Positions 2,335 through 34,397 of a DNA stretch of 36,334 nucleotides are shown piece after piece. Numbering within the stretch: position 1 is the stretch's first letter; the number at the start of each line of letters is the position of its first letter. The DNA is taken from IMG/VR virus record IMGVR_UViG_3300037485_001401, positions 1 through 36,334 of that record. The stretch is one strand, 5' to 3'. The stretch comes from a virus. Both the position numbers and the translations under genes were made by a program. The notes beneath the pieces are model-generated. The model had not been told where the DNA came from. It searched no databases and worked only from the letters and a program-made list of their open reading frames with translations.

Positions 2335-3234
2335 TTAGCAAATCATTGGCGGTGAATATTTGTCGTTAAACTCATTAATCGAATTGACATAGTTTTGATG
2401 GATCATAGCCCTTGCAACTTCAACTTGGGTCATGCCTGAATCCATTAATTGTTTGCAAATTCTTGTAGTTGCGTCGGTCCATATCTTCACTTTCTTGTGA
2501 GTATAGGAAGAAAGATTGGCTAAAAGCGGGTTATTGAATTTGTCTTTCAATGCACCCTTTTCCTGAGAAGGAAGATAGCCGTGGGTATTTAAAATTGTAT
2601 CTTTATGATTTGAGTTGTCTTGTATCTTAGCAAATGAGCCAAGCGGATAGGTTACCCCCCTCACCAATCCACCTGCTACTGATTCACAGCAATTACACAT
2701 AGTTATCAACATTTTTCCCGTATTATATTTCAATCTCGCAAACCGTGATCGCATAGTAACAAACTCTCTTTTTATGATATATCCGTCACAATATCCGAAT
2801 TCTCGGAATGGCATTATTTTTCGGTTTGCCACGCAATCATGGAACCAAGAAATAAATTGCTCGGTTAATTGTACTCTCTGTCTATATGGTGTTTTAGTTC
2901 TTACTAATCTACCGTCAACTTCCATTGTTTGTTCAGCCCAGTTAAGACCATCAATTAGTATGATACCTCTAGCCTGCAATCCTTCCTTGGCTATCCTAAC
3001 GCTCTCTTTTGATCGATTGATAAGATATCCGATAGACCCATTAGCCCAGTCATGAAATGTTTTTAAATTATGTCCATTTTTACCAAGTTTCGATTCCTCA
3101 AGAATCAAATCGAGTAGTTTTAACTCTGTTTCAGTCAAAAACTTAATATGACGAACAGTATTTTTCACATTGATTGAAGAAAGTGAAATGTTTTTTTGAG
3201 CTGATGTATTGATTTTTTGCGCGGAATTATGCAT
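2335..3234 (-). CDS. Winged-helix protein, possible replication initiator
   Basis: This 299-residue protein has a winged-helix-like region at about residues 30-130: TETELKLLDLILEESK, then SIGYLINRSKESVRIAKEGLQARGII. The C-terminal end (ATTRICKQLMDSGMTQVEVARAMIHQ) also looks like a small helical DNA- or protein-binding segment. Size, winged helix and position at the head of the recT operon fit a phage replication initiator, but no catalytic motif is seen and this is inference. The ATG at 3234 follows GGAG. The large palindrome at 3279-3340 lies just upstream and could be its promoter-operator or the replication origin. Confidence 0.6.
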   Translation of the reverse strand: MHNSAQKINTSAQKNISLSSINVKNTVRHIKFLTETELKLLDLILEESKLGKNGHNLKTFHDWANGSIGYLINRSKESVRIAKEGLQARGIILIDGLNWAEQTMEVDGRLVRTKTPYRQRVQLTEQFISWFHDCVANRKIMPFREFGYCDGYIIKREFVTMRSRFARLKYNTGKMLITMCNCCESVAGGLVRGVTYPLGSFAKIQDNSNHKDTILNTHGYLPSQEKGALKDKFNNPLLANLSSYTHKKVKIWTDATTRICKQLMDSGMTQVEVARAMIHQNYVNSINEFNDKYSPPMIC

Positions 3235-3278
3235 ATTTAAATTTCTCCATGACGGTTTTCATAGTTCCGTCTTGTTAG

Positions 3279-3340
3279 TAGGAGAAATTAAATCTTGTGT
3301 ATGTTTATTGGTTGTATTATACACAGTTTGTTTTCTCCTA
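3279..3340. promoter_or_regulatory. Nested imperfect palindrome with promoter -10 (operator or origin candidate)
   Basis: Outer arms TAGGAGAAA (3279-3287) and TTTCTCCTA (3332-3340) enclose inner arms TGTGTAT (3296-3302) and ATACACA (3319-3325), all centred near 3310. A perfect TATAAT lies on the minus strand at 3316-3321, pointing toward the 299-aa gene, though no good -35 is seen. The left half (3289-3307) is an 18/19 match to 4301-4319, upstream of the next minus-strand operon. This suggests a shared regulator. A replication origin is an alternative. Confidence 0.55.
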
Positions 3341-3374
3341 ATTTTTGTAGGTTAATGAGAAAATGTTCTATCGT

Positions 3375-3733: not shown

Positions 3734-4100
3734 CTTTGTACGCCAAAGTTTTTGGGTTTAAAAATGACTCACCTTTCTTTATCCTTTTGCAAGATTTAAT
3801 TTCATTAACTTGTGAATATTCCGTTGTTATTTTGTCAGTTAATGAGAAATGTGTGTAGTTTTTACCATTCTTTTCTATATAGGAAGTTAATACATATCCT
3901 ATCCTGTTCAGATCGATCAAAATTTTGTCAACAACAGACCGCGACAAAGACACCGCTTGGCTTATTATCTCTATGTCAATTTGTTTAGATGCAACATCAG
4001 TGCCATGAGCCGCGATACAAATCATCACCGATTTTTCAGCGGAATTTAACCTGCTGTTGTAGATCATAAGTATTGTCAGTCTTAGATTACTGAGTCTCAT
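3726..4100 (-). CDS. Winged-helix DNA-binding protein
   Basis: The 124-residue product has the plan of its neighbours: LNSAEKSVMICIAAHG, then IEIISQAVSLSRSVVDKILIDLNRIGYV, then a wing ending HFSLTDKI. The motif MICIAA is shared with the 1750-2037 protein, supporting common descent. A basic tail follows. The ATG at 4100 overlaps the stop of the upstream RHH gene (TGATG), with a G-run ribosome site. A longer start at 4103 (TTG) is less likely. Confidence 0.7.
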   Translation of the reverse strand: MRLSNLRLTILMIYNSRLNSAEKSVMICIAAHGTDVASKQIDIEIISQAVSLSRSVVDKILIDLNRIGYVLTSYIEKNGKNYTHFSLTDKITTEYSQVNEIKSCKRIKKGESFLNPKTLAYKDE

Positions 4101-4282
4101 CAATCAACCCCCGATTTAAAATTTAGAGCCAATTCCTTGGAAACAATTTTGTCGATACACCATCTTATTGCTTTTGATCTATTTCCGCTTGGAGCTATCT
4201 TGTTTAACCTACTCCATTGTTTCTTATTTACCCAAATTGTAACGCGCTTTAAATCGTTACTTTTTTTTAAAATTGGAGCCAT
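4100..4282 (-). CDS. Ribbon-helix-helix (Arc/CopG-like) DNA-binding protein
   Basis: The product is 60 residues. The stretch LKRVTIWVNKKQWSRLNKIAPSG fits the beta strand and first helix of the ribbon-helix-helix fold, and NRSKAIRWCIDKIV fits helix 2 with a typical basic N-cap. RHH proteins bind operators as dimers of dimers and often repress their own promoter. The gene starts 28 bases from the perfect 15-bp inverted repeat at 4311-4325. The ATG follows AAAGGAA. Confidence 0.7.
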   Translation of the reverse strand: MAPILKKSNDLKRVTIWVNKKQWSRLNKIAPSGNRSKAIRWCIDKIVSKELALNFKSGVD

Positions 4283-4310
4283 TTTTACTTTCCTTTCGAA
4301 TAAATCTTAT

Positions 4311-4325
4311 GTATGTTTAACATAC
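4311..4325. promoter_or_regulatory. 15-bp inverted-repeat operator candidate
   Basis: GTATGTT-T-AACATAC is a perfect 7-base inverted repeat around one base. It sits in the 76-base space between divergent genes (4282 minus, 4359 plus). With its left flank it forms TAAATCTTATGTATGTTTA (4301-4319), nearly repeated at 3289-3307. The RHH protein next door is a natural candidate to bind it. Confidence 0.6.
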
Positions 4326-4358
4326 TTAAAAATCCTCATTTGTAAAAGGAAAAGTTAT

Positions 4359-4604
4359 ATGACTGATGTTTTTGACGAATTAGAGTCTGTCGTTGATGAA
4401 ATCGCGGATGAAAAAGAAGAGGCTAAAGCTGAAAAAGAAGGTCGTGCTAAAAGCAAATATTTCATTGTGCAAGTTACACATGTAGCCGAAAATCAGAAGG
4501 AATTGCGAGAATATCTTGAGGAAAACGATGACGTGGTTAAATCCCATCGCATTGTTAAAGGTTTTGAAATCCTTCCCAAGCGAAAAGTCGCCTACGTTTT
4601 TTAA
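4359..4604 (+). CDS. Small acidic protein, unknown
   Basis: This 81-residue protein starts at ATG 4359 after AAAGGAAAA. Longer in-frame starts would run back through the operator and the opposite gene. The first 37 residues are very acidic and helical (DELESVVDEIADEKEEAKAE); the rest looks like a small alpha/beta fold (KYFIVQVTHVAE, VVKSHRIVKGFEIL). No family is recognised. It is first in the plus-strand block, divergent from the RHH gene, so it may be under the same operator. Confidence 0.65.
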   Translation: MTDVFDELESVVDEIADEKEEAKAEKEGRAKSKYFIVQVTHVAENQKELREYLEENDDVVKSHRIVKGFEILPKRKVAYVF

Positions 4605-4725: not shown

Positions 4726-4947
4726 ATGGGTAGAAGAATTATAGTTCACGGGTTTCACCCAAAATATACAACAAAACTTTTGAATGAAGCGGCTGAACAT
4801 TTTGGTAGTTTAAGAAAAGTAGCCTTTGCACTAGGAATAGGAACCGCCGTGATTTATCGATGGCGCAATAACGAAACAGAAATGGGAGAAAAATGGGTTA
4901 TTTCATTAGAAAATTTATTGAAAAAATCACAATCATTGCAGTTATGA
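4726..4947 (+). CDS. Cro-like helix-turn-helix protein
   Basis: The 73-residue product has HTH GSLRKVAFALGIGTAVIYRWRN, the pattern of Cro/DicA-like regulators that check a host or phage feature and then bind an operator. Start ATG 4726 has AGAGG five bases upstream. An earlier ATG at 4699 sits directly on GGCAGG and is less likely. Two further HTH proteins of the same short type lie at 32239-32421 and 34682-34873. A TATAAT at 4658-4663 may be its promoter -10. Confidence 0.65.
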   Translation: MGRRIIVHGFHPKYTTKLLNEAAEHFGSLRKVAFALGIGTAVIYRWRNNETEMGEKWVISLENLLKKSQSLQL

Positions 4948-5357
4948 TAATTTCATTGTCGTGCGGTGATGGTAAAGAAAGAGTTGACACAATCAAAGGG
5001 CCAAAAGGCGAGACAGGAGCTAAAGGGGAAGCTGGTGCCAAGGGTGAACCCGGTAGCAAAGGGGAAGCCGGTACAAGGGGAGATAGAGGCGACAAGGGAG
5101 ATAAAGGGGATAGGGGAGATAAAGGGGAATCAGGGCCGGTAGTTGTTCAAACGCCTGCGCCGCAACCACCTATACCCGTTCCACCAATTCCACAGCCCCC
5201 GGTAATTATTTACCCACCGTATCCTTCTGACCCCGGAAATTACTGTTCTGGCTGTATCATTGTTTGTGCCTGTATCCAAAATAGATGGCAAAGCATTATC
5301 ATCAATGTACATGATAGGTATCTATATAATATAAAAAATGATGGTGTATGTTTCTAA
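4893..5357 (+). CDS. Collagen-repeat lipoprotein
   Basis: The 154-residue product begins with a basic, hydrophobic signal peptide ending in a lipobox (IISLSC, Cys24), so it is probably exported and lipid-anchored. Residues about 36-83 are 16 perfect Gly-X-Y triplets rich in K, E, D and R (such as GAKGEAGAKGEP), expected to form a collagen-like triple helix. A proline-rich linker (about 84-115) leads to a Cys-rich tail (YCSGCIIVCAC). The gene overlaps the Cro-like gene by 55 bases and has GGGAG upstream. A surface role, such as superinfection exclusion or altered host adhesion, is inference. Confidence 0.8.
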   Translation: MGYFIRKFIEKITIIAVMIISLSCGDGKERVDTIKGPKGETGAKGEAGAKGEPGSKGEAGTRGDRGDKGDKGDRGDKGESGPVVVQTPAPQPPIPVPPIPQPPVIIYPPYPSDPGNYCSGCIIVCACIQNRWQSIIINVHDRYLYNIKNDGVCF

Positions 5358-7625: not shown

Positions 7626-7895
7626 TTAACCCTTTTTATGAAATCTTTGTTCGCAATCCCAGCAACGTCTTTTTAAAGTCTCAAGTTCGGCCTTAATATA
7701 ATCTATCTCAGCGGAACGTGCAGCAAATGATTCTTTAAATTTGCCAATAGTATCACACAATTTATCTATTTCACGCGCAACTTTGTCGTTAGCATCATCG
7801 ATTGTTTTTTTAATTGAAGTGTTAAGAAAATAAACAAGCCCGACAACCCCCGCACCCATAGAACAAACTAATCCAATTATAGCCTGTGAATCCAT
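7626..7895 (-). CDS. Membrane-anchored coiled-coil protein with CxxC
   Basis: The 89-residue product starts at ATG 7895 with GAGG six bases upstream; a TTG at 7907 is less likely. An N-terminal membrane helix (AIIGLVCSMGAGVVGLVYFL, about 5-24) is followed by a long coiled coil (about 30-75) and a CWDCEQRFH tail. A short helix plus coiled coil recalls XhlA-type lysis proteins, though there the order is reversed. It is 4 bases ahead of the surface-protein gene at 7621. Confidence 0.6.
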   Translation of the reverse strand: MDSQAIIGLVCSMGAGVVGLVYFLNTSIKKTIDDANDKVAREIDKLCDTIGKFKESFAARSAEIDYIKAELETLKRRCWDCEQRFHKKG

Positions 7896-8011
7896 GCTAA
7901 ACCTCAAATTTTTTAACGTGTATAATTATTTTAGCGGATTGCTACCACTTTTTCAAATTTTAGTGTTAATATTTAACTACGCATTAAAATTTAAAAAGGG
8001 GAGATAGCTAC

Positions 8012-8866
8012 ATGAATAAACTATTAATTTTTGTGTTGTTGCTATATGGGTGTTCGGCATCACCCGCAACTAGACAACAAACATCTAATACAGGAAAAGG
8101 GCCAATTGATCCAAAAGTTACCAAAAGTTTCTTGCCTGATAACAATTTTTCTCAAACAAAAAAATATGCTAAAGCAGGAGAAGTTACCGAAGAAGATTTT
8201 GATGACGTAATGGAAGCTATCAGGACAATTTACGAGCCTATAATTTGGAATCATGGCGCTACGCTTAATGTGTATGGCAATTGGTCAGATAACACAGTAA
8301 ACGCATATGCTGAACAGGCAGGAACCGCTTGGAACGTATCTTTCTTTGGCGGGTTAGCAAGACATCCTTATATGACAAGGGAAGGATTTGCAATGGTCGC
8401 CTGCCACGAAATTGGCCATCATGTAGCAGGATACCCAAGCTATCCGGGTGAATGGGCAAGCAATGAAGGTAATTCAGACTTCTATGCAACAGCTTCTTGC
8501 GCAAAGCTCATGTTTGACGAAAACAGCCCTTTGCTGTTCATGAAAAAGAAGCCTAAGCCTAAGCCTACCCCCGTCCCTACGGATTGCGTTGATTCAGTTT
8601 GTAAATTGTCTTTAGAGGCAGGATTATCCCTTGGAAAGGTTTTGGCTGAACTTAATGACGAACCGAATCCAAGTTATGACACCCATGATACCAGCAAGGT
8701 AAGCACAACATATGATTCACATCCTAAAGCTCAGTGTCGTGTTGATACGTATCGCTATGGAGCTTATTGTGACAAGCAATGGAACCATGACAAAATACCA
8801 CAATCTTTAAGTGACATGGTGAACAATAGTTGCTCTGATCGACCTAAATGTTGGTATGCGAGATAA
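8012..8866 (+). CDS. Lipoprotein zinc metallopeptidase
   Basis: The 284-residue product has a lipoprotein signal (MNKLLIFVLLLYGC, Cys14). A gluzincin-type metal site, HEIGHH at 132-137, is followed by a likely third ligand Glu152 in WASNEGNSDFYAT. A KPKPKPTPVP linker (about 175-189) leads to a Cys-containing C-terminal domain. The substrate is unknown: host envelope, cell-wall protein or incoming-phage receptor are possible. It is the only plus-strand gene among minus-strand structural genes, ends exactly where the late operon's last gene ends, and has GGGGAGA upstream. It looks like an independently expressed accessory gene, or an unusual lysis enzyme. Confidence 0.75.
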   Translation: MNKLLIFVLLLYGCSASPATRQQTSNTGKGPIDPKVTKSFLPDNNFSQTKKYAKAGEVTEEDFDDVMEAIRTIYEPIIWNHGATLNVYGNWSDNTVNAYAEQAGTAWNVSFFGGLARHPYMTREGFAMVACHEIGHHVAGYPSYPGEWASNEGNSDFYATASCAKLMFDENSPLLFMKKKPKPKPTPVPTDCVDSVCKLSLEAGLSLGKVLAELNDEPNPSYDTHDTSKVSTTYDSHPKAQCRVDTYRYGAYCDKQWNHDKIPQSLSDMVNNSCSDRPKCWYAR

Positions 8867-9235
8867 CTAAGGGTTACTTGTTCCTTCAACTTCTCTTTCC
8901 ATTCTATCTAATCTTCTCAAACGTAACCATCCAACCGCACTATTCAGGCATCCAATAGCCTGATAGTTTTGTTCGCAAGGATATTTTTCATTCAACTTCT
9001 CAATGATAATTTTTGCAGTTTCAATCATGGTATCAACTTGACAACCGTTAATTCCTACTTCTTTGATCGGTCCGTTTTGTATTTTGAATGAAATAGTATT
9101 CATTCTTTCGGTGATGTTTATTGGGAATTCATCCCTGATTTTGTCGAATTCATCCCAAGACATTTCATCAGGTTTTTTGCGAACTATTTTAAAGCCATCA
9201 ATTTTTTCAATACCTTCTAAAGTTTCCAAAGCCAT
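8867..9235 (-). CDS. Tad1/Acb2-family signalling-nucleotide sponge (anti-Thoeris/anti-CBASS)
   Basis: The 122-residue protein has an N-terminal strand-rich part with ISFKIQNGPIKEVGINGCQ (about 48-66), followed by a helical hairpin: MIETAKIIIEKLNEKYPCEQN, then AVGWLRLRRLDRMEREVEGT at about 99-118. The ending R-x2-R-x2-R-x-VEGT and the NG[VC]Q segment are the pattern of Tad1/Acb2-type proteins, which bind immune signals such as gcADPR and cyclic oligonucleotides. Assignment is by remembered family pattern, not a search. It is the last gene of the late operon, coupled by TAATG to the membrane protein before it, and ends base-to-base against the metallopeptidase gene. Confidence 0.7.
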   Translation of the reverse strand: MALETLEGIEKIDGFKIVRKKPDEMSWDEFDKIRDEFPINITERMNTISFKIQNGPIKEVGINGCQVDTMIETAKIIIEKLNEKYPCEQNYQAIGCLNSAVGWLRLRRLDRMEREVEGTSNP

Positions 9236-9357
9236 TATTCACCATCCCATTTTGTAAACCAAATTTTACCGAGCTTGTACAAGCAAAAAATTGTAGTCGC
9301 CGTAATGACGAATATCAACCACTGGATATCTATCGATAATGAAATGATTCTTTCCAT
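9235..9357 (-). CDS. 40-residue membrane protein in the Acb2/Tad1 cassette
   Basis: This frame runs from an ATG at 9357 to a TAA at 9235, each sharing a TAATG with its neighbour. It encodes one membrane helix at about residues 12-31 (IQWLIFVITATTIFCLYKLG) with a short polar tail ending KWDGE. Because both ends are precisely coupled, it is probably real. It may be a holin-like or membrane-acting partner of the cassette; this is inference. Confidence 0.65.
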   Translation of the reverse strand: MERIISLSIDIQWLIFVITATTIFCLYKLGKIWFTKWDGE

Positions 9358-9596
9358 TATTCATCATTCCTTTCTTCCTGTAATTCAGCCGATCCATTTC
9401 GACTAATTTGGTCATCACGAATAGCTTTACCGATCCACATATAAGCTTCTTCAAGTTTCGTTAAAGCTAAAGCCTTAGCCCTTGGTGAGACTAAAAACAC
9501 ATCAATGTAATTTTCTAAACTTCTAACTGTCCCTTTAAAAACATCTTGTGTGGTTATTGACTTTTCATCATACTTCACATAATCAAATCTACCCAT
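9357..9596 (-). CDS. acb2: Acb2-family protein (anti-CBASS nucleotide sponge)
   Basis: The 79-residue protein carries the block SPRAKALALTKLEEAYMW (about 37-54) followed by IGKAIRDDQISRNGSAELQ, the conserved hairpin of the Acb2-type phage family. Acb2 proteins assemble into hexamers and bind cyclic di- and trinucleotides of CBASS defence. The N-terminus GRFDYVKYDEKS is typical of the short late-region members. It is coupled by TAATG to the phospholipase-like gene upstream and the membrane gene downstream. Binding of any nucleotide is inferred from the family. Confidence 0.75.
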   Translation of the reverse strand: MGRFDYVKYDEKSITTQDVFKGTVRSLENYIDVFLVSPRAKALALTKLEEAYMWIGKAIRDDQISRNGSAELQEERNDE

Positions 9597-9961
9597 TATT
9601 TACAATCCCTCTGTTTCCAAATTTTTTCACCAAACACCCTAACAACCCAATAATTTCTGTAATTCATGAGATGATAAAAAGTCTTATGCCATCCAAAACA
9701 AAATGATTCAATAAACATCTTATTTTTTTCTAGCATAAGATTATCAGCTTCTAATCTTGTACCGAAATTTTCAGCAAAATGGTATGCCCAATCATGAAAG
9801 TTAGCTCCAAACTTTAAAGCATGACTAGAAGGAAGGGAATTAAGAGCGCTTGTTAATACCCTCCATTTTATAGGTCCAACACCGTTCGGCCTAAAGTACC
9901 TTAAACAGAATGGACACATACCACCATCTTTAGCCATTTCTTCCGTGATTATGTCTCTCAT
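9596..9961 (-). CDS. Phospholipase A2-like protein
   Basis: The 121-residue protein contains GANFHDWAYHFAENFGTRLEADNLM, split as an HD dyad (His56-Asp57) in HDWAYH and a downstream R-x-EADN-x-M. This is the short PLA2-like signature found in phage and parvovirus phospholipases, where His-Asp activates water at a lipid ester. A CPFC pair (16-19) may bind zinc. ATG 9961 has AAGGA eight bases before; an upstream ATG at 9970 overlaps that site. It heads the TAATG-coupled cassette and could damage host membranes at lysis or aid entry. No usual endolysin is seen elsewhere. Confidence 0.65.
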   Translation of the reverse strand: MRDIITEEMAKDGGMCPFCLRYFRPNGVGPIKWRVLTSALNSLPSSHALKFGANFHDWAYHFAENFGTRLEADNLMLEKNKMFIESFCFGWHKTFYHLMNYRNYWVVRVFGEKIWKQRDCK

Positions 9962-10102
9962 AGTTAACATCCTTGTTAGCTGCGAAACATCTATCTTTTA
10001 GTTTTTAATTATTAGCAAATTGGACACATATAAATTCCTTTCTTTTGTTTTGAAAATGATCCGTTAAGTTTTTTTGTATCATTATACTTTTTCAATAAAA
10101 AC

Positions 10103-15939: not shown

Positions 15940-17070
15940 TCAATTGCTCCTAAATTCAAAGTTTGCATCGAAATAATTGGAAGGTTTTGATGTTATTGTT
16001 GGATCATTATCAAAGACACCAATGTTAGTAAATTCCGTCAAATCATCGTTGAAGTTTCCAGAGTCTAACGAAAGATAAAAGTTGTTTGATTTACCTATGT
16101 CATAATATAGCTGTTGAATCGCGGTTGTTTCAACTCTAGTTAGGTTAGAAAACTTCAATCCTGATATCCTTTGATGCCTTCCGTACCTTTCAAAATACAA
16201 TCCCCCGGCTTGAGACTCAGTTCTTAAAGCCCGATCCACATCCTGCAAGGTGAACCCTGAATCAACAGTCCTATTTGGCAGGGCAATGTATCCACCAAGA
16301 AAAATTTGACTAAAAACTAGGTTAGGCCCAAAAGGATTAGCTGGGTCAAGTAGCGTAAACCACACATAACGGTAAGCAACAGGTATTCCAGTCTCTAAGA
16401 AATAAAATGAACCTTCTGCCCCGGCTGGCACATTAACACTAAGTGGAGCTGTAGTTATGTCATTTACATTTGAAGCTCTAATATTTAGTGTAGCTCCTGC
16501 TGTTAACATGTTTGAATAATTTCTTTGCGGCATTAGAGCGAAGAAAGAAATATCCATTGCATAACCCAAATCAAAATACATAAATTCATGAGTATGGATT
16601 CTAATCTCACCTTCCAATTCATCACCACTATCAACAGTAATGTTGACAACACCAAGAAGACCAACATCGTACCAAGTTGAAGTAGTTTGATTAGATAGAA
16701 CCATTGCAAAATCAGCTCCAACTAATTCAAAATGAAATTTATATGTAGATAAATAAGTACATGTTAATAATGTTGAAGTTGCTGCTCTAACTTTTGTTTG
16801 TATTTCAGCGGCTAATGTTGTTCCGCTATAGTTACCAGATGCTAAAGTTGCCGTGTATAGCGTATAATTAACCTCAAGATACATTTTATTATTTGTTGCA
16901 TCTATCTTGAATAGTCCATTAGTAACCCACAAATTACCTCGATTCATGGATACGGCGTTAGAAGCTGGAAAGCCTGTCATCGCACCTGAGTTTGAAGTCA
17001 TAGTGCCTAATTCAAGCGAATTAATGTACATAAAGCGCGTTTCACATGATGAACCTAACCCTGCTGTCAT
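15940..17070 (-). CDS. Distal tail protein (probable)
   Basis: The 376-residue product follows the tape measure gene with a shared TAATG at 17070. It contains LYTATLASGNYSGTTLAAEI (about 72-91), a YT-x6-Ala/Leu-x-Ala-Glu-Ile type module also seen in the tail tube protein at 20709-22217 and common in phage structural proteins. The C-terminal half has beta strands and ends in LTEFTNIGVFDNDPTITSKP. Position immediately after tape measure suggests a distal tail protein. Confidence 0.6.
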   Translation of the reverse strand: MTAGLGSSCETRFMYINSLELGTMTSNSGAMTGFPASNAVSMNRGNLWVTNGLFKIDATNNKMYLEVNYTLYTATLASGNYSGTTLAAEIQTKVRAATSTLLTCTYLSTYKFHFELVGADFAMVLSNQTTSTWYDVGLLGVVNITVDSGDELEGEIRIHTHEFMYFDLGYAMDISFFALMPQRNYSNMLTAGATLNIRASNVNDITTAPLSVNVPAGAEGSFYFLETGIPVAYRYVWFTLLDPANPFGPNLVFSQIFLGGYIALPNRTVDSGFTLQDVDRALRTESQAGGLYFERYGRHQRISGLKFSNLTRVETTAIQQLYYDIGKSNNFYLSLDSGNFNDDLTEFTNIGVFDNDPTITSKPSNYFDANFEFRSN

Positions 17071-33900: not shown

Positions 33901-34107
33901 TTACTTAACCCTCCTCATGCTTTGCCTTTTTTCTATGATATCAATCCTATCTAAAAAAGCCCTATTGATAGAATTCTGCTGAGTTATGACCGTAACTAAA
34001 TAGCCTCTTAATTCATCTATTTCGTTCCTATTTTTGTATAATTTTATCAGCAAAAAAAACCAAGCTCCATAGCTCAGACATATCGCAATCCAAAGATTAT
34101 CTATCAT
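33901..34107 (-). CDS. Small membrane/coiled-coil protein
   Basis: The 68-residue product has one membrane helix (about 4-24, LWIAICLSYGAWFFLLIKLY) and a helical tail (INRAFLDRIDIIEKRQ). It is coupled to the MazG-like gene by ATGA and to the next gene end to end. Role unknown; host-takeover or superinfection effects are possible. Confidence 0.6.
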   Translation of the reverse strand: MIDNLWIAICLSYGAWFFLLIKLYKNRNEIDELRGYLVTVITQQNSINRAFLDRIDIIEKRQSMRRVK

Positions 34108-34397
34108 AGAGTACCGTCTTTCATCCTTTCGTTTGCCCGTAATAATTTCTCTGAAACATGCCCATCGATTTCTTTTCTATTAAAAATCATGCAAAGTTGG
34201 TTCAGCATAATTATGTTATCTGCAATTTCTTTCGTAAGTTCTCTAACATTTTCACTACTCTTAACTCGTCTATAGTGATTTATTGCAACAATCAATTCCG
34301 CTGATTCTTCCTGCGCCTGATTTAGCTGCGTCCAAATATCGCCCCTAGCCAGTTTTATAATTACCTCATTTTTAGTCAAATCCACTTGAAACCCCAT
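34104..34397 (-). CDS. MazG-like NTP pyrophosphohydrolase
   Basis: The 97-residue protein carries the all-alpha NTP-PPase signature: EESAE (30-34) and EIADN (57-61), matching the EExxE plus ExxD magnesium sites of MazG-like enzymes. Phage MazG-like proteins hydrolyse nucleotides and may adjust stringent-response signals or clear modified nucleotides. ATG 34397 has no clear ribosome site. It is first in a coupled three-gene run. Confidence 0.75.
   Translation of the reverse strand: MGFQVDLTKNEVIIKLARGDIWTQLNQAQEESAELIVAINHYRRVKSSENVRELTKEIADNIIMLNQLCMIFNRKEIDGHVSEKLLRANERMKDGTL

Follow-up and report, generated by a model that had tools for sequence, protein, structure and literature searches.

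Positions 8867–9596 of the window, the whole virus record of 36,334 bases (37% G+C) analysed here, probably constitute an accessory anti-defence cassette with two nucleotide sponges of the Acb2/Tad1 superfamily, predicted blockers of the CBASS and Thoeris type. An anti-defence unit, as proposed in the original prediction, is the easiest reading of the two-sponge operon. Earlier work treats Acb2 and Tad1 separately, and the literature searched, which covered few subscription papers, yielded no account of two proteins from the Acb2/Tad1 superfamily forming a recurrent tandem. Judged by sequence, both proteins are new members of known families; the recurrence of the tandem is a new element.

Layout of the cassette and its position in the late operon

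The minus strand of the window carries terminase, portal, head, tape-measure and tail genes. The cassette is located at the 3' end of this late operon, beyond two long tail- or fibre-like genes. Four minus-strand open reading frames, joined by TAATG as described at the outset, were confirmed in the ORF listing of the window. These are a PLA2-like protein of 121 aa (9596–9961; DUF1353/group XIV PLA2-like, assigned by model and conserved residues), an Acb2-like hairpin-domain protein of 79 aa (9357–9596; PF24729 and family profile), a single-span membrane protein of 40 aa (9235–9357; sequence) and a Tad1-like protein of 122 aa (8867–9235; phmmer, family profile and predicted model). The PLA2-like frame has an alternative start at 9970; AAGGA ahead of 9961 favours the latter. 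All three junctions are overlaps of 1 nt. TAATG overlaps are also present at 17070 and 24041 in the same late operon and therefore mark compact packing, not special coupling. The G + C content of the four genes is 34–35%, close to that of the window. A late promoter or terminator special to the cassette was not detected, pattern counts being equal to those of shuffles. The late-operon position, at first considered unusual, is not so: in several relatives, too, such genes adjoin late structural genes.

Relatives of the terminase are distant only (about 24–28% identity) and occur in phages of many hosts. Assignment of a host by means of the terminase was dropped for these reasons. A collagen-repeat gene is present on the plus strand at 4893–5357, and lipoprotein-like genes resembling it are located near the same block in contigs L224 and L227. 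A MazG-like nucleoside triphosphate pyrophosphohydrolase is encoded at 34104–34397 (phrog_2245, 1.6e-15). The phage MazG-like protein Atd1 is reported to block a different alarm pathway (PMC10419184), and 34104–34397 may be a further anti-defence gene of the same phage.

Family assignment of the two sponge-like proteins

Tad1-like protein (8867–9235). In single-sequence phmmer the protein matched Tad1 8kbb at 4.7e-8 and phiKZ gp184 at 1.7e-5. A 10-member Tad1-like profile matched 8kbb at 2.2e-15, gp184 at 1.3e-9 and CbTad1 at 4.3e-6. Searched against the whole phiKZ genome, the Tad1-like profile A5 gave one gene at 2.2e-11, the sequence of gp184. Orf184 is reported as the working Tad1 of a phage with natural CBASS resistance (PMC12043709); it is taken to be the orf184 of phiKZ, matched by the window protein and by the profile. 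Features shared with Tad1 (CmTad1 8kbb, CbTad1 7uav/8smd, phiKZ orf184) are the beta part, the two-helix hairpin, the EG tail, the Q-x-GP-I-x-x-x-G-x-N-G loop and the R..R..EG pattern. Q53, G61, N63, G64, C87, R107, R111, E117 and G118 are invariant from the window to distant isolate proteins and gp184. The GxNG loop, the Asn before helix 2, the Arg pairs and the EG tail are invariant or nearly so in the Tad1-like alignments, the window protein included. The match to Tad1 covers the second half of the protein, whereas the N-terminal half cannot be aligned to Tad1 by sequence. Helix 2 is diverged (EQNYQAIGCLNSA versus RENxxAITKLDEA), so PF24729 gives no match to the window protein; Tad1-like relatives in contigs L004 and L136 pass the PF24729 gathering score. 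Given the diverged helix, ligand specificity of the window protein may be changed. The branch starts with MALETL and is represented here mainly by metagenomic contigs. Isolate phages yielded seven Tad1-like matches, all distant; four of the isolates that have such a gene were searched for a second hairpin protein, and none was found.

The predicted structure, built on 52 sequences, has a pLDDT of 86.7 and consists of beta strands (15–18, 39–42, 47–50) followed by two long helices (67–84, 88–114) and an EG(T) tail. No significant match came from Foldseek by itself. On realignment, Tad1 entries took the first six places, with Z of 7.1–8.5, values of 7–8.5 being reachable by unrelated helical hairpins; the next entries were such unrelated hairpins at Z 7.0. 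The model aligns with 8kbf over 69 residues at 2.5 A and with 8kbe over 96 residues at an rmsd of 6.8. The fold result agrees with the sequence result and by itself is no proof. The structural comparison called for by the original prediction came out in agreement with Tad1, and the Tad1-like identity holds by phmmer, profile and model. Gp184 is also chain I of PDB 8y6v, an entry separate from the Tad1 ones; if 8y6v is a virion, the sponge may travel packaged in particles. Two Tad1-like genes are present in contig L090, at 121–459 and 4001–4408, about 3.5 kb apart. By its sequence, L090 appears to be another phage with two sponges of one superfamily.

Acb2-like protein (9357–9596). The protein matches PF24729 (Acb2_Tad1_hairpin) at 8.1e-9 with 36 bits, above the gathering cut-off of 27; Acb2 of T4 and PaP2 score 70 and 65 in a search of their genomes. 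The 20-member family profile matches 9ptq, 'Acb2 homolog 43', at 3e-5 over residues 11–61, and Tad1 chains at 9e-5 to 1e-3. The predicted Acb2-like identity is supported by both searches. In the T4 and PaP2 genomes the family profile did not pick up Acb2. Since PF24729 finds these two proteins and the family profile does not, the family is placed in a separate Acb2-like branch. It shares the PF24729 hairpin and the small size with Acb2 (T4 Vs.4, PaP2 8H2J, 9ptq homolog 43). Identity of the window protein to Acb2 in alignment is 27% for T4 and 17% for PaP2. The branch starts with RFDYVKYD and lacks the IKGY segment, N-terminal in T4 and PaP2 Acb2. F4, R39, E49, E50, M53, W54, G56, K57 and A58 are present without exception in the family, and K21 is nearly invariant. 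Aromatic residues are found at 4, 6 and 9. Lys21 follows Tyr6 by 15 positions, a spacing as in T4 and PaP2, in a region of uncertain alignment. Isolate phages searched for Acb2-like proteins gave no match. In contig L066 an Acb2-like hairpin makes up the N-terminal region of an open frame of 270 aa (2537–3349), perhaps a fusion.

It is unlikely that the two proteins bind other signals, for example cA3 of type III CRISPR or the cyclic nucleotides used by further systems, or have lost nucleotide binding, in which case the CBASS/Thoeris label would be wrong. The diverged helix 2 of the Tad1-like protein, the large distance in sequence of the Acb2-like family from Acb2 of T4 and PaP2, and the sharing of cA3 with type III CRISPR (PMC12043709) are consistent with this possibility, but the invariant residues of the Tad1-like and the near-invariant residues of the Acb2-like family are kept in the window proteins.

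Recurrence of the pair and the variable slot

The Acb2-like and Tad1-like genes are paired in the window and in five other contigs (L002, L040, L066, L071, L122). In all pairs the Acb2-like gene is located 5' of the Tad1-like gene on the same strand, with at most one small ORF between. The genes overlap by 1 nt in L002, are spaced by -13 in L071 and +2 in L122, and are separated by one small ORF in L040 and L066. Each locus was retrieved because it contains one of the families and extends 2.5–5 kb to each side, so pairs lying farther apart would be missed. When the families next to 76 other Acb2-like genes were ranked, Tad1-like came second with 5 loci, all of them downstream, and first among families on a fixed side; the overall leader is found at 6 loci on mixed sides. 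The recurrence suggests an anti-immunity cassette that is reused, not genes that are neighbours by chance. PF24729, the profiles and the model uphold the claim of two distinct superfamily members in one operon. Members of pairs do not cluster on either gene tree, each of which shows 6 label changes (shuffled mean 5.9). Branches with good support require at least 3 of these in the Tad1 tree. Both trees are short and poorly resolved, so that repeated gain and repeated loss look alike.

Little probability is assigned to a single hetero-oligomer with composite pockets in place of two independent sponges. Such an assembly would agree with the shared hairpin family, with the fixed order of Acb2 then Tad1 and direct adjacency in L002, L071 and L122, and with the hexameric state of both published Acb2 and Tad1 (PMC12043709); however, within the fetched stretches most genes of either kind stand alone, and relatives with the same slot keep one of the two, which should work alone there.

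This slot is bordered by the PLA2-like gene and by a convergent plus-strand lipoprotein gene (8012–8866; ORF with a HEIGHH sequence, HEIGH zinc-protease motif). In six related contigs the order is PLA2-like gene, variable gene or genes, convergent HExxH lipoprotein. The slot contains both sponges in the window, only the Tad1-like gene in L006 and L079, only the Acb2-like gene in L012, only a small membrane ORF in L227 and nothing recognised in L224. The records to which L012, L224 and L227 belong, which may be incomplete, were searched in full and gave no Tad1-like gene. Flanking proteins are similar between L079 and L227; of the two, L079 alone has the Tad1-like gene. The stop of the lipoprotein gene directly adjoins that of the Tad1-like gene in the window; in L006, L012, L079 and L227, too, it touches the stop of the final slot gene or is no more than a few bases away. 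Lipoprotein homologues 39–55% identical border the same slot in L006, L012 and L079; further homologues are present in L224 and L227. The lipoprotein has a weak match to M48 peptidase (0.07) and possibly acts in envelope opening or in a change of the host surface. A small protein with one membrane span, a coiled coil and a CxxC tail is encoded at 7626–7907 and conserved beside the metalloprotease in L006, L012, L079, L224 and L227; it looks like a lysis or envelope protein.

Presence of both, one or neither sponge in the slot points to accessory genes carried as cargo and speaks against a structural role. The many different neighbourhoods of Tad1-like genes across other contigs are likewise as expected of cargo rather than of a virion part. 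That both proteins are minor structural or assembly parts of the virion is very improbable: their neighbours are late genes (tail, terminase, portal, scaffold) in the window, L001, L002 and L003, and gp184 is a chain of the solved entry 8y6v, but gene position changes between contigs and presence varies at one slot, unlike that of an essential virion part. The slot is a place to seek other anti-defence genes in this phage group.

Accompanying genes of the cassette

PLA2-like protein (9596–9961). The label is supported by the model and by the conserved His56-Asp57-Asp73; no significant match was obtained in profile libraries, including Pfam. Matches of relatives in L095 (PF08398, 1.3e-3) and L079 (DUF1353, 9e-3) are both below cut-off, and the protein is therefore called PLA2-like only. 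The model has a pLDDT of 84.1. Its best alignments are with 8k1w (Z 7.5), 4aup (7.3), 1faz (6.7) and 7ygk (6.3), four bacterial or fungal PLA2s aligned over 94–104 residues, against Z of 5.8 or less for all others. Foldseek placed 1faz at rank 1 with an E of 0.84, below significance. N26-G27-x-G29-P30, H56-D57 and D73 are invariant in five family members; relatives in L006, L012, L079 and L095 keep NGxGP, His-Asp and the later Asp. A single-sequence scan for relatives gave nothing, a three-sequence scan only two already known, and isolate phages searched gave no match. TtaP, a member of DUF1353, was assayed as a PLA2 and has a His/Asp dyad plus an Asp beside the His; prophage DUF1353 proteins similar to TtaP are described (PMC11525133). 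In common with DUF1353/TtaP and group XIV PLA2 (1faz, 4aup), the window protein has the His-Asp and the downstream Asp, and its size of about 120 aa and the extent of the model alignment accord with group XIV; its Foldseek and Pfam matches are, in contrast, under significance. Among relatives the gene stays in the same place with or without a sponge, which argues against a fixed partnership. The suggested link between lysis and immunity through a phospholipase is not sustained for this reason, and 9596–9961 is probably a separate constant gene of the phage group, not part of the sponge pair.

Membrane protein (9235–9357). The protein, as predicted, is tiny (40 aa) and has one hydrophobic segment. 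Relatives were not detected in Pfam, PHROGs, NCBIfam or the fetched loci, and a functional link to the cassette is not supported, given this lack of conservation. Unrelated small membrane ORFs are found at similar places in L040, L066, L079 and L227. A conserved role of a membrane protein was considered and rejected, hydrophobic neighbours being present beside 5/67 and 5/61 Acb2-like genes. The 40-aa protein is probably incidental to the cassette.

Predicted action and place among known systems

Oligomerisation, ligand binding and protection of the phage are expected from the families of the two proteins. On infection, a host cyclase or TIR enzyme would make an alarm nucleotide. Two oligomeric sponges would bind it tightly and withhold it from the effector. 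The Acb2-like protein would take CBASS cyclic di- and trinucleotides; the Tad1-like protein would take gcADPR of Thoeris and possibly CBASS nucleotides too. CBASS or Thoeris effectors would be kept inactive while particles mature, and possession of two sponges would widen or deepen the range of signals. Published Acb2 binds cyclic di- and trinucleotides, and published Tad1 binds gcADPR as well as CBASS cyclic di- and trinucleotides (PMC12043709). Blocking of CBASS and Thoeris together, as originally proposed, is still the best reading; one sponge for each system is too simple, as the published ligands overlap.

Possession of two blockers of nucleotide signalling by one phage is known from T4 with Acb1 and Acb2 (PMC11722364) and from SPO1 with Tad2 (PMC12043709) and Acb4 (PMC11722364). 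The blockers of T4 and SPO1 belong to two unrelated families, whereas those of the window belong to one superfamily, are encoded by neighbouring cistrons and form a recurring unit.

Panoptes senses sponges such as Acb2 and CbTad1 (PMC12657218) and would offer a hypothetical reason for the observed sponge losses. It is quite unlikely that the Acb2-like and Tad1-like proteins function jointly, by mixed assembly or as a matched pair whose complementary pockets are maintained together by selection, and are exchanged at the slot as a ready-made cassette whose loss is favoured in Panoptes hosts. With the two proteins read as an accessory pair of sponges, the tandem and the slot with both, one or neither offer natural sets of phages for three questions: what makes two sponges of the same superfamily worth their cost, whether the two bind complementary ligands, and whether sponge sensing by Panoptes drives loss (PMC12657218).
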